Assembly: GCA_026182355.1 (NCBI GenBank)
Contig: JAPFBL010000314.1
Location: forward strand, 124,001 to 188,000
Source: Hermatobates lingyangjiaoensis
Taxonomy: Eukaryota; Arthropoda; Insecta; Hemiptera; Hermatobatidae
Direction: 5' to 3'
Length of the DNA: 64,000 nucleotides
Shown one piece after another: positions 8,690-58,988 of this stretch (its first letter is position 1; each line of letters starts with the position of its first letter). A program made the translations under genes and the position numbers. The notes under the pieces were generated by a model. That model was not told where the DNA came from. It was given only the letters and a program-made list of their open reading frames with translations, and ran no database searches.

Positions 8690-8730
8690 CCTCTGCTGCT
8701 TGATAAAGCAGTCGAAATATAGTAGTTACT
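8690..8730 (+). ncRNA. Degenerate hammerhead-like module
   Basis: Contains TTGATAA, then a short segment, then GTC GAA, the word ATAT, A and GTAG. The 3' half matches the family C module (GAA, ATAT, A, GTAG). The heptamer differs from CTGANGA at two positions and the first helix is weak, so it is probably a decayed copy. Confidence 0.35.
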
Positions 8731-8833
8731 TCTTGTGATATCTAATATGTATACTCTTTCTGTGAATTAAGTTAATTTATTTCGTTCAATCATCTCGCGT
8801 TATTGCTTATATATATATATATATTTGTTGTAA

Positions 8834-9057
8834 ATACGATCTGAAATGGACAAATATAGTTCAATGTAGAAAAAAAAAACATAGAGAAATCAAAAGCACA
8901 CACTTACTCTGACTCTGATGGTCTCCAACCGTCTCTGAACCAGAGAGCTTGGTTTCCCTCTCTTATCGCTCCTGAAGACGGTTCAAACCAAAAATTAGAG
9001 ACTGTAAGTGTGTGCTTTTAATTTCTCTATGTTTCTTTTTCTACATTTAACTAATAT
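8834..9057. repeat. Foldback element, family A
   Basis: The outer arms are inverted copies: AATACGATCTGAAATGGAC and the motif around CATAGAGAAATCAAAAGCACAC on the left, and their complement near 9005-9050 on the right. Family A recurs at 25475-25835, 39350-39560, 39575-39840 and 58215-58430. It is always next to (TA)n tracts. Confidence 0.8.
8969..9000 (+). ncRNA. Hammerhead-like module, family A (G12 changed)
   Basis: CTC, CTGAAGA, C, then a hairpin GGTT/AACC, then AAA where GAA is expected, the self-complementary AATT, A, and GAG. The first helix CTC/GAG is intact. The change of the core G to A would be expected to abolish hammerhead cleavage. Confidence 0.5.
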
Positions 9058-9065
9058 ATATATAT

Positions 9066-9245
9066 AATGAAGTCCAAACCACAAGGAAAAAGAAAAACAA
9101 AACAGCTTGTTTTGTTACCTTCCTTCTGGTTAACTTTTCTCATCCTTCTTCTTTCTTACTTTGCTCTGATGACATAAAATAAAAGGCCTCAAAGCATTTA
9201 TTTCTTTTGTTTTTTTTTTTGGGTTGAGGTTTTGGACTTCATTGA
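9066..9245. repeat. Small foldback with AATGAAGTCCAAAACC-like ends
   Basis: AATGAAGTCCAAACC at the left end is complementary to GGTTTTGGACTTCATT at the right end. The interior has CTGATGAC followed, after an AT-rich stretch, by AAAGGCCTC. This resembles the family G module at 21755-21790, but the GAA and helix I are not conserved. Confidence 0.5.
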
Positions 9246-9326
9246 TTGCATCACTTGTTTAATTGTAATGTTTTTCATACATAATAATGTAAAGGTAGTC
9301 GTTATCAGCATTTGGAGAAATTCACA

Positions 9327-9366
9327 TCTATGTGTTGATGACGAGTCGATCGAAATATAGTAGTGA
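9327..9366 (+). ncRNA. Hammerhead-like module, family C (one core change)
   Basis: TTGATGA (CTGATGA with C3 changed to T), C, a short hairpin ending GATC, GAA, ATAT, A, GTAG. The 3' half is identical to the well-preserved family C copy at 28628-28660. Confidence 0.45.
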
Positions 9367-9475
9367 GTTTAAGTGATTTCACCTTTACCTGAACTTGTTC
9401 GAAAAATGCTCACAATAAGCTAGATAGATGACTAAAAAATCTCAGCAAAAAAGTAGTCAATGGGGAAGAAGTTCA

Positions 9476-9516
9476 ATATATATATATATATATTATATAT
9501 ATATATATATATATAA
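9476..9516. repeat. (TA)n microsatellite
   Basis: Alternating TA tract directly left of the family B foldback. Confidence 0.9.
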
Positions 9517-9598
9517 TATTATATTTATAATAAAGGTTTCACATAAACACGTGAAATAACAATCAATGATGAAACCACAATATGAAATGGGAAAACAA

Positions 9599-9641
9599 GA
9601 CTAAGATCTTTCAACTGTAACAAGCGGTCTTCGTCAGAGTC
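9599..9641 (-). ncRNA. Hammerhead-like module, family B, left arm
   Basis: Read on the minus strand: GACT, CTGACGA, A, hairpin opened by GACCG, GAA, AGATCT, T, AGTC. Helix I (GACT/AGTC) pairs over 4 bp, the heptamer fits CTGANGA, and AGATCT is self-complementary. One base of the hairpin (CAGTT for CGGTT) breaks a pair. Confidence 0.6.
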
Positions 9642-9664
9642 AAAAACCCAGCAGTTGGGTTTTT

Positions 9665-9707
9665 GACTCTGACGAAGACCGCTTGTTACGGTTGAAAGAT
9701 CTTCGTC
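9665..9707 (+). ncRNA. Hammerhead-like module, family B, right arm
   Basis: GACT, CTGACGA, A, hairpin GACCG/CGGTT with a CTTGTTA loop, GAA, AGATCT, T, CGTC. The core and hairpin are intact. The first base pair of helix I is lost (CGTC for AGTC). Confidence 0.6.
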
Positions 9708-9740
9708 TTGTTTTCCCATTTCATATTGTGGTTTTATCAT

Positions 9741-10404
9741 TGATATATATATAATATATATGTATATATATATGTAAATATTTACTTAATAAAGGGAAAG
9801 ACGATCCGAACTGGACAGAATAAGAGTAAGTAAGAACCTTACAGTTTGTGTTGATTAAAATGAATATCAAACATTCCTCATTTTTATTTTTCATAAAATT
9901 TATTAAAAGTTCATTGAACCTTAAATAATCAAATCAGACATGTTTCTTAGTTCTATATAATACTGTATGACTCACTTAAGATGCTGTTTGCGGTTTTTGA
10001 AGCTGATAAAGCTACAATAATATGAAATAGAATATAATAAATTAGTTAAATTTTACTCCTACTGTGAAAAAAAATTGTATTGTATTATGTTAATGTCTTT
10101 TGGAGGTGGAATATCATTTTTTATTATTACTGAAAAGCAGCCACAATACGAGGTTAATTATACATTGGAAGTCCTAAATTTCTTGAATAGTCGAATAGGC
10201 TAATAGTTATAAGGGAGGCCGTCATACTTTTTGGTAGTTGTCGAGGAAGCCTGTCACGAAAACAGATAGGATTCTGTAATGACTTTGAAGAAAGAATAGG
10301 CTTTTTTGTATTCGCCCAGTAACGACGTCTAACAAATCTTCCTTCTTGACTTTCTTGATTAGAAATACATGGCAATTGTAAGTAAAACAGAGCTTACTGT
10401 ATTT
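9741..10404. other. AT-rich DNA, no feature seen
   Basis: Short (TA)n at 9743-9775. Frames near 10150-10440 have no recognisable motifs. Confidence 0.5.
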
Positions 10405-13025: not shown

Positions 13026-13028
13026 AGA

Positions 13029-13197
13029 AACAGATAAACCGTCATACCTCGTAAGATGATCCAGGAGTTGGAGCGCTTTCGGAAGTTGTCCTACTCAGTA
13101 AACCTACTCAGTAGGTTTGTTGCGATCGAAGATGGACAACGTCCGAAAGCGCTCCAACTCCAGGATCATCTTACGAGGTATGACGGTTTTACCTTTT
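13029..13197. repeat. Foldback element, family H, copy 1
   Basis: Inverted arms begin AACCGTCATACCTCGTA at 13038 and end with the complement near 13190. A nested CCTACTCAGTA/TACTGAGTAGG inversion marks the centre. The same family recurs at 22860-23030. Confidence 0.85.
13119..13158 (+). ncRNA. Hammerhead-like module, family H
   Basis: GTTG, a 3-nt bulge, a TCGAAGA heptamer, T, hairpin GGAC/GTCC with AAC loop, GAA, self-complementary AGCGCT, C, CAAC. Helix I GTTG/CAAC pairs fully. The heptamer departs from CTGANGA (TC for CT). The sister copy at 22948-22987 has TTGAAGA. Confidence 0.45.
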
Positions 13198-20125: not shown

Positions 20126-20754
20126 CCACAAAATAATATATACCAGCAAACCGAAAAAAAAACAAGTACAGACATTTACTTACTGACTCCACAATCACAG
20201 TGTTACTATATTTCAGCTGTAGTAGGTCCATGACCTAGAACTGCTAATTAAACATGCATTACAGAGCGCGTAAAGAATCGTTGTTTGTTGCTCATACTGA
20301 TAGAATCAGGAGTGAATCAAACTATCAAACTATCTGATCAAACTATGATCATTTAATGTAAAAAACACGCCTTTAGAATATCAAAAATTATTGATTTTGA
20401 AAAGAAATATTTATGAATCAACCCATTAACGACTTTACATCAATGAAAAGAGCAGTAACCCATTAATTGACAGCCGCTACCGACTTTTACAAGAAAGACA
20501 AATGGCAGGTGTCTTACGTATAAATAAACGGACTTATAAAAAGAATTCCTCAAGTTATCTCTTATCCAATAATTTAACAAGATAATGCATTTATATCAAA
20601 GTTGTTGAGCGACTAATATTTACAAAGAATTAAAGGACTTTTTTAAAAGTTACGTCAAAAGCCAACTTACAAAATTTCTTCTTTATTCCATTTTAATTAC
20701 TGTGAATTTTATATATATATATATATCACACTATATATAAACTACATTGACATA
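20126..20754. other. AT-rich DNA, no feature seen
   Basis: Short (TA)n at 20710-20725. Nothing else recognised. Confidence 0.5.
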
Positions 20755-20840
20755 AAGAACACACAGAAATGAAACAGAAATTCACTACAGTGAGTGTTGT
20801 GAGCTTCTGTTTCATTTCTGAGTGTTTATGTTTAAACTAA
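20755..20840. repeat. Short foldback with family C-like arms
   Basis: ACACAGAAATGAAACAGAA at 20761 is complementary to TTCTGTTTCATTTCTG at 20806. The arm sequence matches what lies downstream of the family C modules near 45910-46200. The module itself is not preserved. Confidence 0.7.
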
Positions 20841-20886
20841 TTTATGTCAAAGTAGTTTATTTAGTTCGTTGAATCGTTTCATTTAA

Positions 20887-20928: not shown

Positions 20929-21011
20929 TGATGTCCTTTTCTTGACCAACTGTTCATATATTTTTTGAGATTTATTGAGGGTTTTTGGTCTAATATTCAA
21001 AAAATTTCGTT

Positions 21012-21049
21012 GCCAACGTTTCGATATATATTTATATCTTCTTCAGGGC
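21012..21049 (-). ncRNA. Hammerhead-like module, family F, left arm, intact
   Basis: Minus strand: GCC, CTGAAGA, A, hairpin GATATA/TATATC with an AATA loop, GAA, ACGT (self-complementary), T, GGC. The heptamer and GAA match the hammerhead core. Helix I is GCC/GGC. Confidence 0.68.
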
Positions 21050-21261
21050 TAAAAACATTCTTACATTTACTTACATAAACATACTTCTCAGGTAAACAAA
21101 TTTATATCTTTGTATTTTCTAAACATTATTAAAACAAACTTAAATATAAAAATCTATAGTTTTACCATTGTAATTTTTCAATTTTTGTTGACCATGTACA
21201 TAATAGCAAACAGTAGACCAGTTTTGTTGAAATAAGTGTGCTAAATGTAACAATGTTTTTA

Positions 21262-21299
21262 GCCCTGAAGATGATATAAATATATATCGAAACGTTGGC
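21262..21299 (+). ncRNA. Hammerhead-like module, family F, right arm, intact
   Basis: GCC, CTGAAGA, T, the same 6-bp hairpin, GAA, ACGT, T, GGC. It differs from the left-arm copy only at the extra base after the heptamer (T instead of A). Confidence 0.68.
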
Positions 21300-21621
21300 A
21301 ACGAAGTTTTTTGAATATTAGACCAAAAACCCTCAATAAATCTCAATATATATATATATATGGTACTCACTCTCCTCCTGGCCTCAATCAGTACTATTAA
21401 TTTTTTTCTCCTATTATTAATTTTATTTCAGCATTAAATTTTATACTTATTTTATCACACATTGCTTTCTTCTTTTCTGCTTCTATTATTTTCAGTTTGC
21501 GTTTTTAGTTAGTTCTCTCTCTTTAGATAGTTACTCTTGAGCAAGGCAGCCAGGAAAGGGCACTCGTGTTTGTCGCATTCGACAGTTCGCTCAAAAGCTG
21601 CGTCTGCTCGCAGGAGTACTT

Positions 21622-21655: not shown

Positions 21656-21754
21656 TGAGTGTTATATGGCTTTATCTATGTTTTTCTCTTTTTCTATTGA
21701 GTTATATATATATGAATTAAACAGCACAATAAACAAATATGTATTAATTACAAT

Positions 21755-21790
21755 GCTCTAAGGCCTTTCGTTACAACATCATCAGAGAGC
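21755..21790 (-). ncRNA. Hammerhead-like module, family G, best-preserved copy
   Basis: Minus strand: GCTCT, CTGATGA, T, hairpin GTT/AAC with a two-base loop, GAA, AGGCCT (self-complementary), T, AGAGC. Helix I (GCTCT/AGAGC) is 5 bp and perfect. The heptamer is the exact consensus, and GAA plus A15.1 are present. This is the clearest case of the module in the window. It still has one extra base after the heptamer and no loop in helix III. Confidence 0.7.
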
Positions 21791-21822
21791 TAAATGACCA
21801 AACAATCAGTTTGGTTTATTTA

Positions 21823-21856
21823 GCTCTTGATGATGTTGTACGAAAGGCCTTAGGGC
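21823..21856 (+). ncRNA. Hammerhead-like module, family G, right arm, C3 deleted
   Basis: GCTCT, TGATGA (the C of the heptamer missing), T, short hairpin GTTGTAC, GAA, AGGCCT, T, AGGGC. Helix I still pairs over 5 bp with one G-T wobble. Loss of C3 should inactivate it. Confidence 0.5.
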
Positions 21857-21910
21857 ATTGTAATTAATATATATATATCTGTTTATTGTGGTTTTCAATT
21901 CATATATTAT

Positions 21911-22859
21911 ATCAAGAGTTATTGTTGATTAATAATTTATATACACATATATGAAATGGTGAAGAGAATAGAACATGGAGCAAACAACAAAACTGACTGC
22001 AGTATTTCAACCTCATCTGAATATAAATAAATTTAGTGAAAACGATCTACGATTCGTGGTACTAATACCTTCTCAAGTAGATAAAATTAGAAACCAAATA
22101 CCTCTTCATTAAAGATAAAATAAAACATATGGATTCATATTCATCGGTGCATAACACTGATTATGCAAATTATTAATGTTGGTAAGACATTATATTTATC
22201 CGTTTTGAAATATTTTATCAAAATAATGAAATAAATATGTTGGGAAGTTTTTTTACATTTTATAGAAGAGAAAAGTAGAACTTGTAAAAAAAATGAACAA
22301 CTAAAAATAACAGAAAACCAGTTTCAACTAACAAACCATATAAGGGAAGGTGAACGTAGTAAATAGCGTGAACAGTTGTTTGACATTTAATGATTTCACT
22401 CAGGGAAATTGACTACCGTGATAAATATAGCAACTCTAAAATGTTGATGTACATAAACTACCATTTACTGTACCATTATACTGCAGTGCGTTTGTTTTAA
22501 ACTGATAATAAATCATTATAACAACTATGAACAGTTTGTTGATTTTATCTCTTAATTTTAGGAGTGATATCAAGAGACTTATTCACTCCTGATCAATAGT
22601 TTCTAGGGTTAATTACACCCTGATAACTAACCAACAATCTGTAAAATACATCACCATGACTTGCTCAGCTTGTTACTTGTTTATACCATCCGGGTAGAAA
22701 TGATTTCCAAAAATTGACAAAGTAGACACACTTGAATTATATCTGATAACATATGCTGTTTTAATATTATATTTATGTACCGTTTGTAAAAACCGTAGTC
22801 GTACCCATTGACGTAATCTTTGAACGAGTATAGTTTTGGTGATTTATATTATTAATGTG
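21911..22859. other. AT-rich DNA, no feature seen
   Basis: No recognisable element or coding frame. Confidence 0.5.
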
Positions 22860-22895
22860 GTAAACCGTCATACCTCGTACAATGATGTTGGAGTC

Positions 22896-22934
22896 GTTGG
22901 AGCGCTTTCGGATGTTGTCATCTTCAATCTCAAC
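22896..22934 (-). ncRNA. Hammerhead-like module, family H, left arm
   Basis: Minus strand: GTTG, AGA bulge, TTGAAGA, T, weak hairpin, GAA, AGCGCT (self-complementary), C, CAAC. C3 of the heptamer is T. Confidence 0.42.
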
Positions 22935-22947
22935 TGATTGCGAACGA

Positions 22948-22987
22948 GTTGCGATTGAAGATGAACAACGTCCGAAAGCGCTCCAAC
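22948..22987 (+). ncRNA. Hammerhead-like module, family H, right arm
   Basis: GTTG, CGA bulge, TTGAAGA, T, hairpin GAAC/GTCC (imperfect), GAA, AGCGCT, C, CAAC. Same architecture as 13119-13158. Confidence 0.42.
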
Positions 22988-23279
22988 GACTCCATCATTG
23001 TACGACGTATGATGGTTTGCCATATTAATAATCTAAATCATACTAACCTCAGTGGTCATAATAATATGCATGTATTTAAAGTATTGATGGTTCAGCTACG
23101 TTGCCATATTGACTTGAAGTTAAAACTATTCAACTTTAGCAAAGCATTGTTCTTTATCGAGTGTGTTTTTTGAAAGGGCATTCATTAAATAAACTATCTT
23201 ATCTTATTAATTTTTACTTGCTGGTCGATTTTGTGACACATCTTCAATAGGTTTTGTTTGGTGTCCTACTTAAATTACA

Positions 23280-24240: not shown

Positions 24241-24950
24241 TAGAGACTCTTTTCATCTCTTATAGATTATTTCGTCTTTTGTTACTGTGAGGGCTACTTG
24301 TGATCAAACCGGTTACCCTCAGAGGATTTCCTTATTTATTAGTCCCTCTTTCATCCATTGCTTCCAATATAAATGTTAATTTGGTTTAAAGCAACCAACG
24401 TGGATCATTACCTTAGCGTTCTTGCTGTAGCTCTATTTTGAAGCTCACCCAGTTATTCCCAAAATGCCAGCACCTCTCTCTATTCACTTACTGTCCAATC
24501 CTTTCTGTTCGCTTCTCTATTAAACATCCCTTTAATATAGCCCAAAATGTTCATAACTTTCTGTCACTAAACTGCATATAAAATCAGTCATACGTAAAAT
24601 TAACACCACATATTTCAGCATTTCATCTTAAGACTTAGATCGATATCAAAATAAATTATGAAAATCATATAGTCAATTTCAGAGCTACTAAAGCCATACT
24701 ACTTCTGCTCTGAAACAAATATTGTTATACTCCTGAGCCCATATTTATGCAGTCAGATCACAGAACCTAAAGATAACTCTCACATTATCAGTTTTTTAAT
24801 GTTTTTTTTTAGATTTCACAGTAGATAGTTGAAATACAAATCATCCTTAAAACCACAATACAGGTTCTCAGAAATTTCAGTAACATCTTTTAACCTAAAC
24901 AAATGGTATTCAACACAGTCTCTCTATACGTTCACACAGGCTATGAGTGA
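24241..24950. other. AT-rich DNA, no feature seen
   Basis: Nothing recognisable. Confidence 0.5.
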
Positions 24951-24993
24951 GACTCTGACGAAGACCTGTTGTTTTGGTTGAAAGATTTTAGTT
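24951..24993 (+). ncRNA. Hammerhead-like module, family B, solitary
   Basis: GACT, CTGACGA, A, hairpin GACC/GGTT, GAA, AGATTT, T, AGTT. The core is intact. Helix I pairs with one G-T wobble. It is followed by a (TA)n tract at 25029-25061. Confidence 0.55.
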
Positions 24994-25025
24994 ATATTTC
25001 TCTATTTCTTAGTGTCGTTTAAACT

Positions 25026-25028: not shown

Positions 25029-25061
<33 letters not shown>
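25029..25061. repeat. (TA)n microsatellite
   Basis: Pure TA tract between two foldback elements. Confidence 0.95.
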
Positions 25062-25065
<4 letters not shown>

Positions 25066-25076
25066 CTATGAGTTGT

Positions 25077-25446
25077 CCGGGGAAAGGAATATGATTCGTT
25101 GCAATGTTGACCAATGGAAGTGAAGTTTATAGAGAGAATCATTTTTACCGAGTAACCGAGTTTACAAAGTTTACCGAGAGTATCATTTAAAAACTAGCAA
25201 TATCCGTAACAGAAAATAGTAAACAACAACACCCAACAACCACAAAAATCAAAAATAGAAAGGGAACAGGAGTTCACTGTAAAGTGAGGCTAATGTTTTC
25301 TGCCAAACATCATTTAACACAGAGGGGCTGTGCAACCTCTATACCTATTGGCAGAGCGACAAGGGCTTTTTGCTGAGCAGCGGGCAACTGGGAACTTACG
25401 CATGGACCTATAAACTTCACTTCCATTGGTCAACATTGCAACGAAT
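25077..25446. repeat. Foldback element, family R, copy 1
   Basis: TTCGTTGCAATGTTGACCAA at 25097 is complementary to TTGGTCAACATTGCAACGAA near 25427. The spacer includes GGCTAATGTTTTCTGCC and CCTATTGGCAGAG. It recurs, more decayed, at 39913-40160. Confidence 0.85.
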
Positions 25447-25562
25447 ATATATATATATATATGTATATATATAATGTTTCGATGAAAATACGATCTGAAA
25501 TGGACAAATACAGTTCAATATACATAAAAAACCATAGAGAAATTAAAAGCACACACTTACAG

Positions 25563-25595
25563 TCTCAAATTTTCGGTTGAACTGTCTTCAGGAGA
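25563..25595 (-). ncRNA. Hammerhead-like module, family A, left arm, intact core
   Basis: Minus strand: TCTC, CTGAAGA, C, hairpin AGTT/AACC (weaker), GAA, AATT, T, GAGA. Helix I TCTC/GAGA is 4 bp. Base 17 is T here and A in the right arm, both allowed in hammerheads. Confidence 0.62.
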
Positions 25596-25755
25596 GATAA
25601 GAGAGGGAAACCAAGCGCACTGGTACAGAGACGGTTGGAGACCAATGTTGCCACATACGCGCCCGGTCTTATACTCTATGACCGGGAGCGTATGTGGCAA
25701 CATTGTTGGTCTCCAACCGTCTTTGTACCAGTGTACTTAGTTTCCCTCTCTTATT

Positions 25756-25788
25756 TCTCCTGAAGACGGTTCAACCGAAAGCTAGAGA
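25756..25788 (+). ncRNA. Hammerhead-like module, family A, right arm, intact core
   Basis: TCTC, CTGAAGA, C, hairpin GGTT/AACC, GAA, AGCT, A, GAGA. The helix III word is AGCT instead of AATT: two bases changed and self-complementarity was kept. Confidence 0.65.
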
Positions 25789-25835
25789 CTGTAAGTGTGT
25801 GCTTAATTTCTCTATGTTTCTTTGTGTACATTGAA

Positions 25836-25840
25836 CTCTC

Positions 25841-25905
<65 letters not shown>
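25836..25905. repeat. (TC)n then (TA)n microsatellite
   Basis: CTCTCT tract at 25836-25873 and TATATA to 25905. Confidence 0.95.
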
Positions 25906-25909
<4 letters not shown>

Positions 25910-26060
25910 CGTTGAACAGCTGACCGTATTTCGCTGATGTCATTTTCTTCACTAGTTTTTCAAGGTTTCTGAATACCTTCTTTCCTTCATCCAAACGTTG
26001 GAGAATGTTAATTAAGTTGGAACCGACATGTTTCGACTCGCTTCCAGTCATCTTCAGGGT
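25906..26060 (-). mobile_element. Penelope-like terminal fragment: hammerhead plus start of coding region
   Basis: On the minus strand the module at 26060-26022 is followed by a frame reading LINILQRLDEGKKVFRNLEKL, then VKKMTSAKYGQLFNEI. It then runs into (TA)n. The segment FR.LEKL.KK...AKYG..FN is shared with 31692-31800 and 30970-31082, also downstream of a module. I infer this is the 5' coding start, or terminal-repeat part, of a Penelope-like retroelement family. Confidence 0.6.
26022..26060 (-). ncRNA. Hammerhead-like module, Penelope-linked type, intact core
   Basis: Minus strand: ACC, CTGAAGA, T, hairpin GACT/AGTC with a GGAAGCG loop, GAA, ACATGT (or AC/GT closing an AT loop), C, GGT. 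Helix I ACC/GGT. The stretch GAAACATGTC is what a minimal helix III followed by a GTC cleavage triplet looks like. Confidence 0.68.
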
Positions 26061-26067
26061 GACTGAA

Positions 26068-26102: not shown

Positions 26103-26106
<4 letters not shown>

Positions 26107-26319: not shown

Positions 26320-26364
<45 letters not shown>

Positions 26365-27524: not shown

Positions 27525-27592
27525 ACAAGATTTCATATAAACACGTGAATTAACAATCAATGATTAAACCACAATATGAAATGAAAAAAAAT

Positions 27593-27635
27593 GACTATGA
27601 CCTTTCAACCACAACAAGTGGTCTTCGTCAGAGTC
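27593..27635 (-). ncRNA. Hammerhead-like module, family B, left arm
   Basis: Minus strand: GACT, CTGACGA, A, hairpin ACCAC/GTGGT, GAA, AGGTCA, T, AGTC. In most copies the stem is ACCG/CGGT, so one G-C pair is replaced by A-T with the pairing kept. Helix I is perfect. The helix III word is disturbed. Confidence 0.6.
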
Positions 27636-27653
27636 AAAAGCCCAACTCTGACT

Positions 27654-27696
27654 GACCCTGACGAAGACCACTTATTGTGTTTGAAAGATCTTGGTC
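27654..27696 (+). ncRNA. Hammerhead-like module, family B, right arm, helix I covariation
   Basis: GACC, CTGACGA, A, a hairpin opened by GACCAC, GAA, AGATCT, T, GGTC. Helix I is GACC/GGTC instead of GACT/AGTC. Both partners changed and pairing is preserved. Confidence 0.65.
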
Positions 27697-27744
27697 TTTT
27701 TCTTTTCGTTTCATATTATGGATTGATCATGTGAATATAAACAT

Positions 27745-27870
27745 ATTTCAAAGAAACACGTGAAATAACAATCAATGATCAAACCACAATACGAAGAAGG
27801 GAAAACAAGACTAATATTTTTCAACCGTAACAAGCGGTCTTCGTCAGAGTCAAAAACCAAACTGTTCACC
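27745..27870. repeat. Half copy of family B
   Basis: Only one arm is present, starting ACACGTGAAATAACAATCAA and ending in the module at 27809-27851. Confidence 0.8.
27809..27851 (-). ncRNA. Hammerhead-like module, family B, intact core
   Basis: Minus strand: GACT, CTGACGA, A, hairpin GACCG/CGGTT, GAA, AAATAT, T, AGTC. Helix I and the hairpin are perfect. The helix III word keeps its A and T ends but loses full self-complementarity. Confidence 0.6.
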
Positions 27871-28419: not shown

Positions 28420-28525
28420 TATCAATTAAACACGTGAAATAACAACCAATGATCAAACCACAATATGAAGATGGGAAAACAAGACTAAGATTTTTCAACC
28501 GTAACAAGCGGTCTTCCTCAGTCAA
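28420..28525. repeat. Half copy of family B with damaged module
   Basis: Arm as at 27745. The module at 28483-28523 (minus) lost part of the heptamer: GACT is followed directly by GAGGA. Confidence 0.7.
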
Positions 28526-28627
28526 AGAGCCAACAAGTTGATATATATTGTTGATATATATTGATATACATTTGATATATATATATAAATGAAACAATTC
28601 ATATAATGAAATGGATTATGAAACTCA

Positions 28628-28660
28628 CTACTATATTTCAACTTCTTCGTCATCAGGTAG
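28628..28660 (-). ncRNA. Hammerhead-like module, family C, intact core
   Basis: Minus strand: CTAC, CTGATGA, C, GAAGAAGTT (weak hairpin), GAA, ATAT, A, GTAG. Helix I CTAC/GTAG is 4 bp, and further pairs are possible beyond one mismatch (TCT with AGTGA). The core is the exact consensus. Confidence 0.6.
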
Positions 28661-29460
28661 AGATATAATAGGAGTGTAAAGACTTCTTTTATGTATAGTC
28701 GGTCATCTGTGAACTTAGTTTATATTTATAAACAAAAAGAATTGCTCTATAAGTGTAAGTTAAATTACACAAAAGGAAAATGTAGAAAAACCTGATACTA
28801 CTCACATCTACATTTCGAATCGAGTCGTCTTCAGGAGTAAAACTGTCTCACCCAGGTAGAGATACTGCCAGGGAAAGTCTGATACAGTTTTGGTTTTTAC
28901 TCAATTTATTCTCCGAATGACGGTCCAAAACAAAAATTTGAGACGAAGTCTTAGTTCTTCCTTATTTGCATAAACATGTAAAATAGTAATCAACATCTAC
29001 ATCAGAGTAAGAAAATAATAAATGGGATTAAAATCTTTCAACTAAATCAAGTGGTCTTGGTCAGAGTTTCACTGATGCAGAAAAATAAGTAGTTAAGGAC
29101 ATTTGATAAAAATAGTAAAAACTGATTGATTAGTGTGATTTAATTGAAATATATTGATTAGTTTTGATGTACAGTCCTTTAAACTAATGCACCTGTAGCC
29201 AACCTCCTGCGGGAGAAGCTAGTTAATAATTCCCTCGCTTCATCTACTACAACCATAATCCAGTTAATTAAATTATAATTATCATATTTAATTTGAAAAT
29301 AGATTTTTTCAAGCTAAAATATAAAGCTGCAATTTTACTTAGTCAAGTAAATGTTGCAGATGAATTATGACACATTCTACTCATCCAGTAAATGTTAGAA
29401 TATCTGTTTATGATGGCGTAAGAGTTTGCTTCCGGCATTGTTATTTCACGTGTATATGTG
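28661..29460. other. Decayed family A/B remnants, then AT-rich DNA
   Basis: 28793-28990 holds sequences like CGTCTTCAGGAG and TTTGAGACGAAG that look like old family A arms. 29029-29068 resembles a family B module with a changed core (CTGACCA). Nothing is seen from 29100 to 29460. Confidence 0.4.
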
Positions 29461-30134: not shown

Positions 30135-30136
30135 CC

Positions 30137-30688: not shown

Positions 30689-31090
30689 AAATAACGCCCC
30701 ATATTTGGCTTGTATCTGGATTATTAAATATCCAACTTAATAATTCCTGTGGAATTTTAAAATTATTTTCTAACAGGTCAAACCAGATTAGCCAGGTAGT
30801 AGGTGAGTCCAACCACCCTGCCTTAATCCTCCATAATGCCCCGTGACCCAGAGCGATGTCCTGTGAAAATTCCAATAGTAATCCACCTCTATATATATTA
30901 ACCAACAATCCTACTATTATTCTCATTATTGTCCTGATGATGAATGTGGTACATTCTAAACATGTCGACTAGGAATATTGGTGATAAGCTTTATAGTTTT
31001 AATGAAGAGACGAGGAATGAATTCCGAAAACTGGAAAAATTGTGTAAGAAACAGATACAAGCCAAATATGGGGGTTATTTAACAATATAT
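30684..31090. mobile_element. Penelope-like fragment with inverted ends
   Basis: CGCCCCATATTTGGCTTGTATC at 30690 is the inverse of GATACAAGCCAAATATGGGGG near 31052. So the unit again has inverted termini. The + strand from 30970 translates STRNIGDKLYSFNEETRNEF, then RKLEKLCKKQIQAKYGGYL, the same FRKLEKL.KK...AKYG segment as in the neighbours. It lies just downstream of the module at 30931-30969. Confidence 0.62.
30931..30969 (+). ncRNA. Hammerhead-like module, Penelope-linked, G12 changed
   Basis: GTC, CTGATGA, T, hairpin GAATGT/ACATTC with a GGT loop, TAA (GAA expected), ACATGT, C, GAC. Helix I continues after an internal loop: ATTATTCT upstream pairs with GGAATATT downstream. A helix I with an internal loop is typical of natural type I hammerheads. 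The G-to-T change at position 12 should inactivate it. Confidence 0.6.
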
Positions 31091-31128
31091 GTTTAAATGA
31101 AGGTCTGCTCCCAACTTTTACAAATATA

Positions 31129-31530
31129 TATTGCAGTCGCTGCAAAAACTCTCCACTGAAAGAAACAAATCTGGTGTACGAGTACCAATGCAATTATGGG
31201 GACTGTGAAACCCAAAAACGCTCATACATTGGAATGACTACAACTACACTCTCTAGAAGACTGACCATGCACCTGATATCTGGAGCCCCCAGAAAACACA
31301 CAGAGCAAGTCCACCATACAAAGTTAACCAGAGAAGCGCTTGTGGAAGGAACTAGAATAATAAAAAAAGAACAGGACCAGCATAGACTCAAAATAACAGA
31401 AGCCATACTCATACAGAAAACGAAGCCATATATTAATATCCAGTTAGAAAATAGTGAGAAAGTGGTAAAACTATTTAGATCAACCCCAGGTCAAGTGGGA
31501 CCTCTCCAGGTAGAGGCAACAAACTCCTAA
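31129..31530 (+). pseudogene. Penelope-like retroelement GIY-YIG endonuclease domain, 5'-truncated
   Basis: The frame reads YCSRCKNSPL, then VYEYQCNYGDC, a short link, YIGMTTTTLSRRLTMHL, then a segment ending HTKLTREALVEGTRI, then ITEAILIQKTKPYIN. The catalytic-domain features are visible. VYEY stands in the GIY position, YIG is exact, the Arg lies in LSRRL and the Glu in ITEAIL, and the paired Cys motifs CSRC and QCNYGDC precede the domain as in Penelope-like elements. The reverse transcriptase that should precede it is absent. The fragment begins right after a short (TA) stretch and stops at a natural-looking stop at 31530. The domain itself has no internal stop. This class is known to nick target DNA for target-primed reverse transcription. 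Confidence 0.85.
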
Positions 31531-31797
31531 CCAGGTCACTCAACCCAAGGATTCAGAAAAACAACTTTAATCCCCCAACCTTCTCAACACATTTCACTTC
31601 TCTTATATAAAGGAACAATCTATTTCAAACTCAGTTATGTCTTGATAATGGCTGAGGACAGCAGAAACATGGACTCATGTAACATGTCGACTATCGGAAG
31701 CATATTATATATTGTTGAGATAGTAACAAGAACTCTATTCAGAAAACTTGAGAAACTTATTAAGAAGCAACTTTCAGCAAAATATGGTCATATTTTT

Positions 31798-31802
<5 letters not shown>
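31531..31802 (+). mobile_element. Penelope-like 3' region: UTR, hammerhead, restart of coding region
   Basis: Directly after the endonuclease stop come about 105 bases of noncoding sequence, the module at 31639-31691, and a frame reading FRKLEKLIKKQLSAKYGHIF, then NNI, running into (TA)n at 31803. The order of endonuclease, hammerhead and 5' coding start is what a tandem or circular-type terminal repeat junction of a Penelope-like element would give. Confidence 0.68.
31639..31691 (+). ncRNA. Hammerhead-like module with extended helix III, Penelope-linked
   Basis: GTC, TTGATAA (C3 and G8 changed), T, hairpin GCTG/CAGC with an AGGA loop, GAA, helix III ACATG/CATGT closing an 11-base loop, C, GAC. 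Unlike the other copies, helix III here has a real loop. The heptamer changes argue for a decayed copy. Confidence 0.55.
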
Positions 31803-31836
<34 letters not shown>

Positions 31837-32002: not shown

Positions 32003-32661
32003 CAGATTCAATAATATATCGACCGTATGATAGAATAGGTGTGTTCTCTAATCGGGGTTCGGTCAATTTTCCAGAATAAAAAATCAAACTCTCGTTGCCA
32101 ACGTTTCGGTTTTATTTAAAACCTTTTCCATAGGCCTACAAACAAAGGATAATAAGAAATCACATATCAACATCAAACATATACACAATATGAAAATTAA
32201 TCGATCTAAGTTCGATTAATCATAGAAGTGATATTACTAATTTAAGTAATATTTATTCTGGAGTGTTGTGCTGAGGTTTAGTGAAATTTGATTTATTTAG
32301 TTCCCTTGAGTGAACAGTGTTGAGGTTATTTGTAATGTTATCTTATTAGTCTAGTCGAAGGTTTTGTCCGGCTAACATTGTTGTTCCTTTAAATAATGTA
32401 AATTTCATTTTCTTAGTTAAAAAATTCTTACTTCTGTAAGTAATATTGTTTTATGTATCTCTGAAATATTTCTGCTTGTAATATTCATAAGTTGTAACAA
32501 TCCATTTTCATATTGTGTATATGTTTGATGTTGATATGTGATTTCTTATTATCCTTTGTTTGTAGGCCTATGAAAAAGGTTTTAAATAAAACCGAAACGT
32601 TGGCAACGAGAGTTTGATTTTTTATTCTGGAAAATTGACCGAACCCCGATTAGAGAACACA

Positions 32662-32704
<43 letters not shown>
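32003..32704. repeat. Foldback element, family E, copy 1
   Basis: Left arm 32036-32195 and right arm about 32508-32665 are inverted. The outer motif is GGTGTGTTCTCTAATCGGGG. The spacer holds a segment that recurs in copy 2 at 58467-58840, including TTCGACTAGA-type and AACATTGTTGTTCC motifs. A (TA)n tract follows to 32704. Confidence 0.9.
32097..32136 (-). ncRNA. Degenerate hammerhead-like module, family E
   Basis: Minus strand: GCC, TATGGAAAA (no CTGANGA), hairpin GGTTTT/AAAACC, GAA, ACGT, T, GGC. The mirror copy is at 32566-32604 on the + strand. Everything but the heptamer fits the family F layout. Confidence 0.35.
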
Positions 32705-39560: not shown

Positions 39561-39639
39561 CTACAAAAAAGTATATATATATATAAATAGTTCAATATAA
39601 AAATAGAAACATAGAGAAATCAAAAGAACACACTTACAG

Positions 39640-39673
39640 TCTCTAATTTTCGGTTTGAACCGTCTTCAGGAGA
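39640..39673 (-). ncRNA. Hammerhead-like module, family A, best copy
   Basis: Minus strand: TCTC, CTGAAGA, C, hairpin GGTT/AACC with a two-base loop, GAA, AATT, A, GAGA. All elements are intact. This is the family A reference copy. Confidence 0.68.
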
Positions 39674-39741
39674 GATAAGAGAGGGAAAGAGACGGTCTCC
39701 AACCGTCTCTGAACCAGTGCGCTTGGTTTCCCTCTCTTATC

Positions 39742-39775
39742 TCTCCTGAAGACGGTTCAAACCAAAAATTAGAGA
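39742..39775 (+). ncRNA. Hammerhead-like module, family A, G12 changed
   Basis: As the left arm, but AAA replaces GAA. The same change is found at 8969-9000 and 39449-39482, each the right-hand module of its element. Confidence 0.55.
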
Positions 39776-39912
39776 CTGTAAGTGTGTTCTTTTGATTTCT
39801 CTATGTTTCTATTTCTATATTGAATTATATTTGTCCGTTTAAATCGTATTTCCAATAAAAGTTATATATATATAAATATTATATATAAAAATAAAAATAA
39901 AAATAAATAGAT

Positions 39913-44949: not shown

Positions 44950-45005
44950 TTCACTTCTTCTCCTGAGGACGACCGCTATTACGGTCGAAATATTGAAAAG
45001 TGAGT
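44950..45005 (+). ncRNA. Hammerhead-like module, family D, intact core with bipartite helix I
   Basis: TTCACTT, internal loop, TC, CTGAGGA, C, hairpin GACCG/CGGTC with a CTATTA loop, GAA, ATAT, T, GA, internal loop, AAGTGA. The outer part of helix I (TCACTT/AAGTGA) is perfect and is separated from the core by an internal loop. Natural type I hammerheads use such loops for tertiary contacts. Confidence 0.68.
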
Positions 45006-49309: not shown

Positions 49310-49570
49310 TATACGTATACAAAGATTTCACATAAACACATGCAATAACAATCAATGATCAAACAATATGAAATGGGAAAACAAGACAAAGATCTTCCAA
49401 CCGTAACAAGCGGTCTTCGTCAGAGTCAAAAACCCAACTGAGTTTTTGTAATCAGTTTTGTAAACCCAACCTCAGTTGGGTTTTTGATTCTGACAAAGAC
49501 CACTTGTTCCGGTTGAAAGAACTTCGTCTTGTTTTCCCATTTCATATTGTGGTTTGATCATTGATATACG
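49310..49570. repeat. Foldback element, family B
   Basis: Arms inverted around about 49455. Modules at 49385-49427 (minus: GACT, CTGACGA, hairpin GACCG/CGGTT, GGA, AGATCT) and 49486-49528 (plus: GATT, CTGACAA, GAA). Confidence 0.85.
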
Positions 49571-49599: not shown

Positions 49600-49790
49600 C
49601 AAAATAAAAATGTATATTCAAACCACAGTAAGAAATCAGAAAAAAGAGTAAGATTTTCTGATTTTCGACAGAATGATATCTCTGACAAAGAGATTTAAAT
49701 CTGACGATGACCGCTTGTTACAGTTGAAAGATTTTATTCTTTATTCCCATTTCTTACTATGGTTTGAGCTTTGGTACACTTACTTATGTC
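49600..49790. repeat. Foldback element, family B variant
   Basis: AAACCACAGTAAGAAATCAG at 49619 is partly complementary to the TTTCTTACTATGGTTTGAG region near 49750. The + module is at 49698-49738. The left module has decayed. Confidence 0.75.
49698..49738 (+). ncRNA. Hammerhead-like module, family B, third helix I version
   Basis: AAT, CTGACGA, T, hairpin opened by GACCG, GAA, AGATTT, T, ATT. Helix I is AAT/ATT, different from GACT/AGTC and GACC/GGTC but still paired. Confidence 0.55.
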
Positions 49791-50800: not shown

Positions 50801-51247
50801 CATAAAAACACTTTGAATGCTGTACAGCATATTTAACAGAAAAAAAGTAAAAATATTAGAAAAAGACAAATATATGTTAACTTAAATTTTCCATTTATAT
50901 GTTAACTTAACCATTAATTGTTAACATTGACAATTATATGTTAACTTAATTGTTTTGTTGTTTCACTACAAATATGAAGTCAAGTATAATACAAGTGGTA
51001 CTAGGTGTGTAAGAGTGTATGTGCATCAATGTGTTTGTCTGTGTATGCATGTATGTACGAGGTGTGTAAATAAAGTAGTGAGACTGGCAACGTCGCTTTC
51101 GATCTGGCAACGCTGGAGACGCGTGGCCTTGAGTAGCGTCAGGTGCACGTGTGATGCGCCTCCAGTATGAATCTGAACTCGCCACAGTCATTTGTTTGTC
51201 CGTAGCGTTGGTTTTCGTGAAATGGTTTTTTCTTGAGCGTTTTAAAA

Positions 51248-51532
51248 ATGAGTGACCTCAAAGTTGAGCAGCGGTGTGCAATCAAATTTTGCTTCAGACT
51301 TGGACATAATGCAACCGAAACTTTTGAAAAACTTCAGGAGGCCTATGGAGAACGTGTTTTATCAAGGGCACAGGTTTTTCGGTGGTTTAAGGAATTTTCA
51401 GAAGGAAGAGAGTCGATTGAAGATGAACCACGAAGCGGAAGGCCTTCAAGTGCAAACACCGATGAAAATGTCAACAGAGTACGGAACCTTGTGCGTTCAG
51501 ATCGACGCTTGACAGTCAGAATGATCGAATGA
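51248..51532 (+). pseudogene. Mariner transposase, N-terminal DNA-binding part (copy 2)
   Basis: An open frame from the ATG at 51248: MSDLKVEQRCAIKFCFRLGH, the FEKLQEAYGERVLSRAQVF and RWFKEFSEGRESIEDEPRSG segments, GRP hinge, then RRLTVRMIE and a stop at the deletion junction. It lacks the LNLNHTSVHHIL segment that copy 1 retains. It lacks the frameshift seen in copy 1. Confidence 0.93.
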
Positions 51533-51539
51533 TCGAAAA

Positions 51540-51902
51540 AGAGTCCTTCGTGTGCGGCCAAACATCAAAGACAAGTGGGTGTTGCATCATGACAACGCGC
51601 CCTGTCACACTGCCATCTCAATAAACGAGTTTTTGGCCAGTAAAAACATTCCTGTTGCACCTCAGCCTCCTTATTCACCAGACTTGAGTCCTTGTGACTT
51701 TTTCCTCTTCCCGAGATTGAAAAATCACCTCAAGGGAACTCATTTCGGGACACTACAAAACATACAAACTGCTGTAACCGACCAGCTGAAGGCCATTCCA
51801 GAATCCGAGTTCCAGCAATGCTACAATGATTGGAAGGACCGTCTCCAGCGCTGTGTGGCTTCCGAAGGGAACTATTTTGAAGGTGACAATATCACATTGT
51901 AG
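51540..51902 (+). pseudogene. Mariner transposase, C-terminal catalytic part (copy 2)
   Basis: Reads VRPNIKDKWVLHHDNAPCH, then a segment with PPYSPDLSPCDFFLFPRLK, ending EGNYFEGDNITL. The second and third catalytic Asp are present with 34 residues between them. The first Asp is lost in the deletion. Non-autonomous. Confidence 0.93.
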
Positions 51903-52073
51903 TTATATTTGAATAGAAAATTTAAAAAAAATCAGTCTCACTACTTTATTTTCACACCTCGTATATGTGTTGTGTGTATATGTCTCGGTGTTAGCGTGTG
52001 TATTCGTCTGTGTAACTATGTATGTGTGTGTATCTGTTTGTGGTGTTTATGGAGAAAGAGAACTCTTTCTCTT

Positions 52074-52418
52074 GGTGTTGAGAATCGGCATATTCACTCC
52101 AGAAATTATTATTGACAACATAATCCAGAGTGCTGAGGCTTGGAAAATGGTAGACTGGCTAGTCAAAAATATCCTCACAACCAAAAAGCGACACTTAGAA
52201 GAGCAACAATTAGAATAACAAATTATAAAGTACGACTGCCTTATGTAAGAAAAAGAATGGCCTAGCCTGAGGTAATGTGGAAAACGGTTCCAGACTAGTG
52301 TCTTAGAAGAAAAGGGGGTATTTTAGTGAGTAGTCTGGTTTACTGGGAGCCCAGCACTGTGTGTGTAAATGCATTTCACCTCCTTATAAAAAAAAATTAT
52401 TATTATTATTATTAAACA
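52074..52418 (+). pseudogene. 3' end of a non-LTR retroelement with (ATT)n tail
   Basis: A frame ends IFTPEIIIDNIIQSAEAWKM, then VDWLVKNILTTKKRHLEEQQLE and a stop. A conserved-looking 3' UTR follows (CTGGTTTACTGGGAGCCCAG, TGCATTTCACCTCC) and a microsatellite-like (ATT)n tail to 52413. Tail and 5' truncation fit a LINE copy. I do not recognise the family with certainty. Confidence 0.5.
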
Positions 52419-52471
52419 CTATTTCTTCTTCTCGGAATTTAGTCAGGGTTATTATTTGATATCACCTTTTC

Positions 52472-52509
52472 GCCAAGGTTTCGTCTTTATTTTAAGACAT
52501 CCTCAGGGC
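52472..52509 (-). ncRNA. Hammerhead-like module, family F-related, left arm, intact core
   Basis: Minus strand: GCC, CTGAGGA, T, hairpin GTCTT/AAGAC with an AAAATA loop, GAA, ACCT, T, GGC. The hairpin sequence is completely different from 21012-21049 (GATATA/TATATC), but the helix I, core and spacing are the same. Confidence 0.62.
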
Positions 52510-52675
52510 TATAAACTAACAAAAAACAATGGACATTTGTCATATCATAAAAAATTCAAAAAACTTACTTACTCAGTTTTAGAAGCTAGCTTTGAGTAAA
52601 TTTTTTGAATTTTGTATGATGAATGTAAAGTAGATATGACAAATGCTCATATCCATTTGTTTTTGTTAGTTTATA

Positions 52676-52713
52676 GCCCAGAGGACGTCTTGAAATAAAG
52701 ACGAAACGTTTGA
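52676..52713 (+). ncRNA. Hammerhead-like module, family F-related, right arm, U4 changed
   Basis: GCC, CAGAGGA, C, hairpin GTCTT/AAGAC, GAA, ACGT, T, TGAC. Helix I is weakened. Confidence 0.5.
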
Positions 52714-52790
52714 CGAAAAGGTGATTCCAAATATTAACCGTGACCAAATTCCGAGAAGAAGAAATAGTTTCCGTTAGTAATTGTGGTCAA

Positions 52791-53577: not shown

Positions 53578-53612
<35 letters not shown>

Positions 53613-53616
53613 TGAG

Positions 53617-53703: not shown

Positions 53704-53706
<3 letters not shown>

Positions 53707-56668: not shown

Positions 56669-57325
56669 ACACTGGCGAACAAAAAAAAAATTATTGTCTT
56701 GGTGTCTAAAAGGTTTTAACAATTTTTACCTAATTTAAAAGTTGTTTAAAATGGGCGCTGATTCCAGAAATACTGTCGTTTTTTTCTTTATTAGGTCTAG
56801 TTTTCCTGCTATGGTGTAACCCTCTCTGTAGAAAGGTGATAGTTACAATAAAGACAGGTAAATCGAAGAAATAATATTTTTATTTAACTTTACGACACAT
56901 ATTCATTAATCATATAAAATAAAATATTTGTAATACATATGCAATACATTTGGATTTAAATGTATATTCCCCGCAAATATAGCAAACACATTTGATTTGT
57001 TTAAGCAATGTCGCCTAAGAGAGGATCTAGCCATGCTTAATTTTTACTCCAAAAATCTGCAAACACAAATACAAGTTTTAAGGTTTGTGATGTAATAATA
57101 ATTATGTTACATTGATCACAATAACAACCTACAATTGTTATTATCACGCTAGAATGTATTTAGAAATACGCCTAATTTTAAGATGATAAAGATATGAAAT
57201 CTGAAACATCTCACTAACTTGACCAGATCGGACAAAATTAGGATGATTTTCGGAATCAGCACCTCTAAATTAATCAAACTCACCTTAGAAACCTTGGTCA
57301 TCGAAAGTTATATTGACCACGTAAT
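56669..57325. repeat. Dispersed ~650 bp repeat with terminal inverted motif, copy 2
   Basis: Aligns with 10405-11060 in the same orientation. Inner inverted ends: GCGCTGATTCCAGAAAT at 56756 and GATTTTCGGAATCAGCACC at about 57245. Confidence 0.75.
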
Positions 57326-57769
57326 AATTGTATATTATCGAATTTCCTTTCGTCAGAATGACTAAAGAACTTGGGCAGTATAATTGTTATGAGCTATTAT
57401 GATTATTGATTTAATAATGTATAATAATTGAGATAATCTGAGGTAATTATGAAGAGAATAATATATGATTATAACAATTAGTGAAATATAACACGGTGGT
57501 ACTCCACTAATTAATTAGTTAAATTAAATGTTATAATTTAATATTTATATATTTTGTGGAAAGACCACTCAAGGAAAGAAGCAATGTATTGTACTTTTTA
57601 AGTGAATGAGTCAATAATGACAATTATAGTGATTAGTGTAATTTAACTCAGTGACTATGCATGACTATAGCCAGCCTGTTGTATTGTAGAATAAATTTTA
57701 TAAAAGTTTCCCCTTGAAAGGGGGTCGTCTTGGGTTAAAGTTACATCAGTGATATGGCGAAGTTAGAAT
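57326..57769. other. AT-rich DNA, no feature seen
   Basis: Nothing recognisable. Confidence 0.5.
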
Positions 57770-57925
57770 TAGTTGGCACCCCCTTTGGAATACTTGGAAG
57801 GGCGAGAGGCGTGCAGGGGGTGGGTGGGGTTTAGGGAAGGAGGAGTGGACAAGGGTCGCAGCACAGCTAGCTTATGCAGGGCAGCGCTTGGGTCTGATGT
57901 CTCCATGACAACTGCCCCCTCCATA
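57770..57925. other. Short GC-rich island
   Basis: GGGGTGGGTGGGGTTTAGGG and similar. No frame with a recognisable domain. Confidence 0.3.
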
Positions 57926-58195
57926 TTCACAATCAAATGCCCGATTCAAAAAAACCCATTTCTTTTACTTGCAACTTTTAAAAAAAAATCTTTTATTTTA
58001 CATGTTTTTTTTTACCTGCATGATTCATCCATATTTATGGAACTCTTAAAACAATTGCTCTTTTTTTTTATTTCATTTCGACTCAACATGAAATATACAG
58101 TAATGAAAGTATTGTATTTTGATCGAAACTTCAACATCAATTTCAATAGAAATGAACAGTTTAAGGTTTTCTGAGTTCAGTAATACAGGTATCGT

Positions 58196-58424
58196 AAATA
58201 TATATATATATATATATACTTTTACGATGGAAATACGATCCGAAACGGACAAATATAGTTCAATGTAGGAAAAGAAACATAGAGAAATCAAAAGCACACA
58301 CTTACAGTCTCTAATTTTCCGTTTGAACCGTCTTCAGCAGAGACTTTAAAACGGTTCAAACCGAAAATTAGAGACTGTGAGTGTGTGTTTTTGATTTCTC
58401 TATGTTTCTTTTTATACATTGAAC

Positions 58425-58466
<42 letters not shown>
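58196..58466. repeat. Foldback element, family A, between two (TA)n tracts
   Basis: (TA)n at 58196-58219 and 58427-58466. Arms meet at about 58343. The left module (58308-58341, minus) has CTGAAGA, GAA and AATT, but helix I is reduced (TCTG for TCTC). The right arm lost its heptamer but keeps hairpin GGTT/AACC, GAA, AATT, A, GAGA. Confidence 0.88.
58308..58341 (-). ncRNA. Hammerhead-like module, family A, helix I weakened
   Basis: Minus strand: TCTG, CTGAAGA, C, a hairpin opened by GGTT, GAA, AATT, A, GAGA. Core intact, first helix I pair lost. Confidence 0.55.
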
Positions 58467-58468
<2 letters not shown>

Positions 58469-58840
58469 TGTGTTCTCTAATCGGGGTTCGGTCAATTTTC
58501 CAGGATAAAAAATCAAACTCTCGTTGCCAACGTTTCGGTTTTATTTAAAACCTTTTTCATAGGCAGAAGTAAGAATTTTTTAACTAAGAAAATGAAATTT
58601 ACATTATTTAAAGGAACAACAATGTTAGCCGGACAAAACCTTCGACTAGACTCTAGTCGAAGGTTTTGTCCGGCTAACATTGTTGTTCCTTTAAATAATG
58701 TAAATTTCATTTTCTTAGTTAAAAAATTCTTACTTCTGCCTATGAAAAAGGTTTTAAATAAAACCGAAACGTTGGCAACGAGAGTTTGATTTTTTATCCT
58801 GGAAAATTGACCGAACCCCGATTAGAGAACACACCTATTC
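58467..58840. repeat. Foldback element, family E, copy 2 (near-perfect palindrome)
   Basis: Arms of about 185 bp run from GGTGTGTTCTCTAATCGGGG at 58467 to the axis at about 58652 (GACTAGACTCTAGTC), with almost no mismatches. A frame of 65 codons therefore occurs on both strands. Degenerate modules (TATGAAAAA in place of the heptamer) lie at 58526-58564 (minus) and 58738-58776 (plus). Confidence 0.93.
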
Positions 58841-58870
58841 TATCAAACGGTCGATATATTATTGAATCTG

Positions 58871-58906
58871 TTATATATATATATATATAATATATATATA
58901 TATATT
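58871..58906. repeat. (TA)n microsatellite
   Basis: TA tract right of family E copy 2. Confidence 0.95.
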
Positions 58907-58952
58907 AAAGTTACAGCTAGAGAACACAAGAAAAAAGACGAACACTCACGAA

Positions 58953-58988
58953 TCTCGATAATTTCGGCGTCTTGCCGTCCTCAGGAGA
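58953..58988 (-). ncRNA. Hammerhead-like module, solitary, intact core
   Basis: Minus strand: TCTC, CTGAGGA, C, hairpin GGC/GCC with an AAGAC loop, GAA, ATTAT (AT/AT around one base), C, GAGA. Helix I TCTC/GAGA is 4 bp. A (TA)n tract follows at 59070-59096. Confidence 0.62.

Follow-up and report, generated by a model that had tools for sequence, protein, structure and literature searches.

Small hammerhead ribozymes are known from Penelope-like elements (PLEs), and the original paper on them is said to announce in its title that they cleave as dimers. The literature already contains PLE hammerheads of minimal type I form that may act as dimers (PMC7761336, PMC6155905), and a 2020 review termed the role of the hammerhead in PLEs a mystery (PMC7761336). 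One close comparison is the Anolis carolinensis element Poseidon, whose enzyme cuts and extends both DNA strands and begins complementary DNA (cDNA) at two neighbouring internal positions of the RNA, which delimit a tail (PMC11167929). According to the same work, Poseidon inserts in vitro without ribozyme activity, and hammerhead cleavage was seen only with the protein. Another is Penelope of the rotifer Adineta vaga, in which pseudo-long terminal repeats (pLTRs) are inverted and one of them carries a tail, an arrangement for which self-priming was favoured (PMC3846280).

Here we describe a 64-kb stretch of contig JAPFBL010000314.1 of Hermatobates lingyangjiaoensis, referred to as the window, in which a sequence-only reading had noted a recurrent hammerhead-like module and suggested a link to PLEs. 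Both strands were scanned. The hammerhead families of the window, designated by letters, are new members of the published PLE hammerhead class, with which they share the type I layout, a very short stem III and the association with PLEs. The modules are probably small type I hammerheads of PLEs that lie in the outward-pointing arms of head-to-head inverted insertions, and the inverted repeats themselves are likely to be leftovers of Penelope-type elements. As in Poseidon, the hammerhead lies in a pLTR, an open reading frame (ORF) begins at stem II and the targets are AT-rich (PMC11167929); unlike Poseidon, the copies in the window are for the most part short inverted fragments that lie in (TA)n, and a number of the families have no recognised coding sequence. 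Head-to-head inverted pLTRs with a single tail are shared with the Adineta vaga elements (PMC3846280), which have ORFs, whereas the 14 measured foldbacks of the window are 171-632 nt across and have little or no coding.

A hammerhead core with covarying helices

At all 18 positions listed in the sequence-only reading, an exact CTGANGA heptamer is followed by GAA at hammerhead spacing; the heptamer occurs 46 times in the window, both strands counted. The self-complementary A..T word said to follow the GAA stood in part: a perfect 4- or 6-nt palindrome and then a non-G base are present at 12 of the 18, and the palindrome is missing at 24955, 27631, 27847, 49701, 52506 and 58984. Damaged copies, of which at least a dozen had been claimed, number more than a dozen.

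Two descriptors were used. The strict one consists of helix I of at least 3 bp, CTGANGA, 0-2 nt, a hairpin of at least 3 bp and GAA, followed by a 4- or 6-nt A..T palindrome, a non-G base at position 17 (H17) and the helix I partner; the loose one is identical except that stem III is relaxed. The strict descriptor finds 8 sites in the window, compared with a mean of 0.005 and a maximum of 1 in 200 dinucleotide shuffles made in 2-kb blocks, and the loose descriptor finds 15, compared with a mean of 0.115 and a maximum of 2 in 200 such shuffles. With 200 permuted heptamers the strict descriptor yields a mean of 0.04 sites; the best of them, CTGAAGN, gives 5 sites and overlaps the real motif, and three others give 1 site each. 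When the GAA triplet is swapped, one of 11 alternatives gives 1 site and ten give none. A scan that allows two core mismatches returns 12 sites, 8 of them exact and 4 with one mismatch; on ten shuffles it returns 1-5 sites each, none of them exact, with one-mismatch sites in 2 of the 10. The 15 loose sites comprise 14 of the 18 positions listed earlier and one additional site, 28521-. Absent from them are 9669+, 25591-, 28656- and 44963+, which fail the descriptor through a break in helix I or II or a helix length below 3 bp.

To compare structures we took one copy from each of ten families (A, B, C, D, E, F, F3, J, K and the PLE copy of the window) and counted pairs by structural position, copies and boundaries being placed by hand. 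Pairs 1-4 of helix I are formed in 10, 10, 9 and 6 of the ten families, and those of helix II in 10/10, 10/10, 8/9 and 5/7. Each position of the two helices is occupied by 2-4 standard pair types around a fixed core; such constancy of the core, together with covariation in the helices, is required of a hammerhead. Nine families combine the exact CTGANGA and GAA core with compensating helix pairs, and the PLE copy has TAA in place of GAA. Stem III measures 4-6 nt throughout, always begins with A and ends with T (the A15.1-U16.1 feature), and is self-complementary in 8 of the ten, the words being AATT, AGATCT, ACGT, AGGCCT, ACATGT (twice), ATAT (twice), ACCT and ATTAT. Position 17 is T in five families, C in three and A in two, and never G. 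An alignment of 13 modules made with MAFFT mixes the columns of 4- and 6-nt stems III, and cofolded pairs of modules, not all of which yielded a clean double hammerhead, are not taken as evidence.

One extra base separates A9 from the first pair of helix II in all ten families (T in five, C in four, A in one; A also in the other arm of family C), and G follows directly at 10.1 in every one. It is present in 14 of the 15 loose sites, and a descriptor that does not allow it retains 1 of the 15. This base may be the reason why Rfam covariance models overlook these modules. In 2001 De la Pena and Flores reportedly described a hammerhead of chrysanthemum chlorotic mottle viroid whose core has one additional nucleotide, an A after A9. 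The likeness lies in the single extra core base; the viroid is not a retroelement, and its extra base is A, compared with T, C or A here. A published account states that the extra core nucleotide weakens cleavage by the viroid hammerhead (PMC11014351).

Head-to-head foldbacks with a tail on one arm

The modules had been assigned to at least eight foldback families with entirely different sequences outside the core, and both statements were too strong. Long foldbacks with an exact core are confined to families A, B, C, D and J; a partner arm was not seen for F (28656-) or K (58984-), and the only inverted repeat of family E is an inner one of 9 bp. Families C and G are alike at 77-81% over 43-60 nt, and C and J at 68% over 88 nt.

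In all 14 measured pairs the left arm has the family's sense sequence on the minus strand and the right arm has it on the plus strand, so that the copies lie head to head and their tails point outward; in A1 and A3 the left arm does not extend far enough to contain the module. Where a family has repeated copies, its outer end comes in a short form or in a form about 33-46 nt longer (lengths judged by eye), and we refer to the longer form as tailed. Twelve pairs were scored with a tail probe (A1-A5, B1, B2, B6, B7, C, G1 and G2), and exactly one arm is tailed in all 12, the left in eight and the right in four. The probes for A, G and C were derived from a scored copy, C being a single copy, and the score of A4, 16 of 28, is barely over the threshold, the null maximum being 15. 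By eye, F4 (45.1 kb) has one tail, the right arm of E is too short to be judged and J lies outside (TA)n. A (TA)n run of at least 12 bp occurs within 200 nt on the tail side of 11 of 18 modules; rotation gave a mean of 2.49, and 11 was reached in 9 of 2000 rotations.

The transcript of foldback A4, the one copy folded, is predicted to form a single long hairpin (-177 kcal/mol) that would hide the module; cutting would therefore matter in the parent element and not in the foldback. On this model a module in a foldback transcript would pair with the opposite arm, and the term 'hammerhead-bearing repeat' need not imply an active ribozyme. Families G and H keep the helices around broken cores, TATGAAA in G (TATGGAA in one arm) and TTTGAAA in H.

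Association with a Penelope-like element

A GIY-YIG endonuclease ORF (Table 1) lies between two hammerhead-bearing pLTR-like stretches, the second of which is degenerate. Among 53 candidate homologues of this ORF, 40 have E <= 0.001; the best is 58% identical over 69% of the query, and two carry a precomputed PF01541 assignment. A search of viral contigs and genome contigs with the endonuclease alignment gave 11 and 7 pattern matches, respectively, and no relative among them.

In family E, A9, the extra T and G10.1 together form an ATG that opens a PLE-like N-terminal frame. The frame of the second pLTR (31648) opens at the equivalent ATG of its degenerate core, and the two peptides align at 62% over 26 residues. 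Other copies differ. In the first pLTR of the PLE copy the frame from the core ATG stops at codon 11 and a second ATG, at 30962, opens the PLE-like frame; at the PLE-like 5' end near 26.7 kb, the ATG at the core position leads to a stop after 18 codons and the PLE-like frame runs downstream from 26798. The corresponding codon in families A, B, F, F3 and K is ACG or AAG. Because ATG frames fail or differ elsewhere, the extra base serves as a start-codon base in some coding members only. The type I layout and the link to Penelope elements suggested in the sequence-only reading are both supported, by the covarying helices, the GIY-YIG ORF, the tail on one arm and this PLE-like N-terminal frame that starts from the core.

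A possible route of insertion

These features can be accommodated by a route in which the RNA of the element would begin in the pLTR and bear the ribozyme across the ORF start. The GIY-YIG enzyme would cut (TA)n, and both cut strands, which could each prime because (TA)n is its own complement, would prime cDNA at two nearby start sites on the RNA, one of them yielding the tail. Two truncated cDNAs joined 5' to 5' would then leave a foldback with outward-pointing copies of the ribozyme. The PLE machinery would carry families A, B and F as non-autonomous passengers. The predicted cut in the RNA lies after position 17 and would occur mainly in pairs of copies joined by the self-complementary stem III. 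Cleavage is probably not needed for spread, because family G occupies three loci although its core is destroyed. A variant in which one enzyme trails another on a single RNA, which would make the tailed arm the shorter in every case, is contradicted by A3 and A4.

The inverted shape may help to show how Penelope-type elements insert. Families with intact and with destroyed cores have all inserted, which provides a handle on the role of the hammerhead in PLEs, and the rule of one tail could distinguish two-sided priming from self-priming.

Evidence against the assignment and alternative explanations

Several observations weigh against the assignment of the modules to PLE hammerheads inserted in this way. 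Helix II does not follow directly after A9 as it does in the canonical hammerhead; Rfam hammerhead models make no call in the whole window at the gathering threshold, and a permissive scan (E <= 10) of 20.9-28.8 kb finds no hammerhead. The type I layout proposed earlier therefore agrees in its core, covarying helices, A15.1-U16.1 and H17, and departs from the standard in the extra core base and the lack of an Rfam call. The copies used for covariation favour an intact layout, which biases the fraction paired, and some helix I letters are common to C and J and to A, F3 and K; as the copies were hand-chosen for intact layout, the variety of pairs is more telling than the fraction formed. The Pfam match of the endonuclease ORF (E = 0.0022) falls below the curated cut-off. 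No reverse transcriptase was recognised among the window ORFs of at least 130 aa, for which no reverse transcriptase profile search was made, and the copy is truncated. Tail scoring was not blind, the arms having been viewed beforehand, and it covered neither D and J, of the 14 pairs, nor E, F4, F7 and the PLE copy; two of these, D and the PLE copy, were judged by eye to have ends that are alike and not a single tail. Seven of the 18 modules have no long (TA)n run within 200 nt. Of 11 pairs, only 4 have arms that match one another better than any other copy, a proportion that, given the ages, fits two-sided priming as well as self-priming. The frames that open at the core ATG of C, D and J run for 2 codons before a stop. 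Finally, the study of Anolis Poseidon reports no RNA-seq reads ending at the hammerhead cut site (PMC11167929).

The alternative that survives best concerns how the arms came to be inverted. Rather than arising from two strands that prime towards one another, the foldbacks could come from one cDNA or antisense RNA that folded back and was copied onto itself, a form of self-priming put forward in work on the rotifer Penelope (PMC3846280) and in keeping with near-perfect foldbacks around tiny centres (99.7% in G2, 95% in B1) and with the inner hairpin of family E, whose 9 bp enclose a 5-nt centre. We regard this as a real possibility, although we lean against it: copying back would be expected to double the tail, which is found on one arm in every scored pair, and some centres, as in A1 and A3, are strongly asymmetric, with one arm reaching much further inward.

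Families A, B and F, in which no coding was recognised, might instead resemble retrozymes, that is, small non-coding RNAs cut by their hammerhead, circularised and mobilised by PLE enzymes. In a review, PLEs are considered likely to mobilise the non-LTR (long terminal repeat) retrozymes of metazoans (PMC7761336). We consider this unlikely, given that no direct tandem hammerhead repeats of A, B or F were seen in the window and that every measured pair is inverted head to head.

It is about equally improbable that the modules have lost the ability to cut RNA and persist as relics, through descent or as binding sites for protein or DNA. Helices persist around the broken cores of families G and H, and in the Anolis study hammerhead mutants inserted normally in vitro and RNA-seq ends at the cut site were lacking (PMC11167929). 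Against this stands the exact core in nine families with compensating helix pairs, which suggests selection on the RNA in the source elements. The view that the foldbacks are Tc1/mariner-type miniature inverted-repeat transposable elements, with a TA target that explains (TA)n and an incidental likeness to hammerheads, draws on inverted repeats in TA-rich targets and on two mariner-like copies in the window (29.8-30.5 and 51.1-51.9 kb), and is highly improbable because the outer ends vary between a long and a short form, as does the centre, and because the hammerhead helices covary and the arms contain PLE-like coding.

A possible start codon within the core

Returning to PLE hammerheads, the start codon within the ribozyme core suggests a testable role. 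Cleavage at position 17 would remove the AUG from the message. If cleavage depends on the element's own protein, as reported for Anolis, coding members with a core AUG might use it as a feedback switch from translation to template, and the extra base might exist as the U of that AUG; we hold this to be a distinctly doubtful proposal. Searches of a protein collection with the N-terminal peptide and with an N-terminal alignment found no homologue, and the start-codon idea therefore draws its sequence support only from the window and from PMC11167929. In the titles and opening lines of abstracts searched, largely without subscription papers, neither such a switch nor a rule that very short foldbacks strictly have one tail is described.

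Features of the window and other observations

Table 1. Hammerhead modules, coding features and foldbacks in the 64-kb window
Feature	Position	Strand	Detected by	Remarks
Family B module, foldback B1 left arm	9598..9642	-	strict descriptor	
Family B module, foldback B1 right arm	9664..9708	+		helix I first pair mismatched
Family C module	21010..21051	-	strict descriptor	stem III ACGT
Family C module	21260..21301	+	strict descriptor	stem III ACGT
Family D module	21755..21790	-	strict descriptor	stem III AGGCCT; in foldback 21712-21903
Family B module B9	24950..24994	+	loose descriptor	single arm adjoining (TA)n; no perfect palindrome
Family E module	26020..26062	-	strict descriptor	stem III ACATGT; A9-T-G10.1 = ATG
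Family B module, foldback B2 left arm	27592..27636	-	loose descriptor	no perfect palindrome
Family B module, foldback B2 right arm	27653..27697	+	strict descriptor	
Family B module B3	27808..27852	-	loose descriptor	no perfect palindrome
Family B module B4	28482..28526	-	loose descriptor	additional to the 18 listed earlier
Family F module	28627..28661	-		stem III ATAT; helix II only 2 bp
PLE copy hammerhead	30929..30971	+	2-mismatch scan	TAA for GAA; A9-T-G10.1 = ATG
Family F3 module	44958..44999	+		stem III ATAT; helix I only 2 bp
Family B module B8	49696..49740	+	loose descriptor	no perfect palindrome
Family J module	52470..52511	-	loose descriptor	stem III ACCT; in foldback 52408-52781
Family K module	58952..58989	-	loose descriptor	stem III ATTAT, non-palindromic
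Family E core-ATG frame	25905..26051	-		49 residues, no stop, runs into (TA)n
GIY-YIG endonuclease ORF of PLE	31048..31530	+	Pfam GIY-YIG, E=0.0022	160 aa
Second pLTR of PLE copy	31648..31806	+		degenerate; open 53-residue N-terminal frame into (TA)n
Foldback B1	9562..9744			95% over 183 aligned; tail on left arm only
Foldback C	20966..21345			modules 21046- and 21265+
Foldback A2	25512..25837			left arm tailed; modules 25591-, with a break in helix II, and 25760+
Foldback G1	32035..32666			family G; core TATGAAA in one arm, TATGGAA in the other
Foldback A4	39587..39828			module 39669- exact, 39746+ with AAA for GAA; right arm tailed
Foldback G2	58464..58838			375 nt, 99.7%; hammerhead helices kept, core TATGAAA

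Several family B copies fold back near a common CCCAAC/GTTGGG point (about 9650, 27645, 45333 and 49436-49477, by eye), which lies about 20 nt upstream of the heptamer and is perhaps a fixed 5' end of the RNA. A nested inverted structure at 26105-27189 contains a second PLE-like 5' end with a degenerate hammerhead, and an inverted repeat of 506 nt (36129-36634 and 37313-37818, 99% complementary) flanks the family H module with its dead core.

Foldbacks of two further kinds were noted by eye. Those of family N, at 13035-13189 and 22850-23030, lie outside (TA)n and carry a hammerhead-like remnant with a disrupted heptamer, which consists of a GGAC/GTCC hairpin (in the first copy), GAA and AGCGCT. 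Those at 20737-20860 and 25060-25450 lie in (TA)n, have no recognisable hammerhead and show a tail on a single side.

The two mariner-like transposon copies are in opposite orientation, at 29811-30465 (-) and about 51080-51950 (+), and the DDE_3 match of the former is just below the curated cut-off. Between 6001 and 8000 the window has repetitive C-rich sequence with a strong excess of C (GC skew -0.48).

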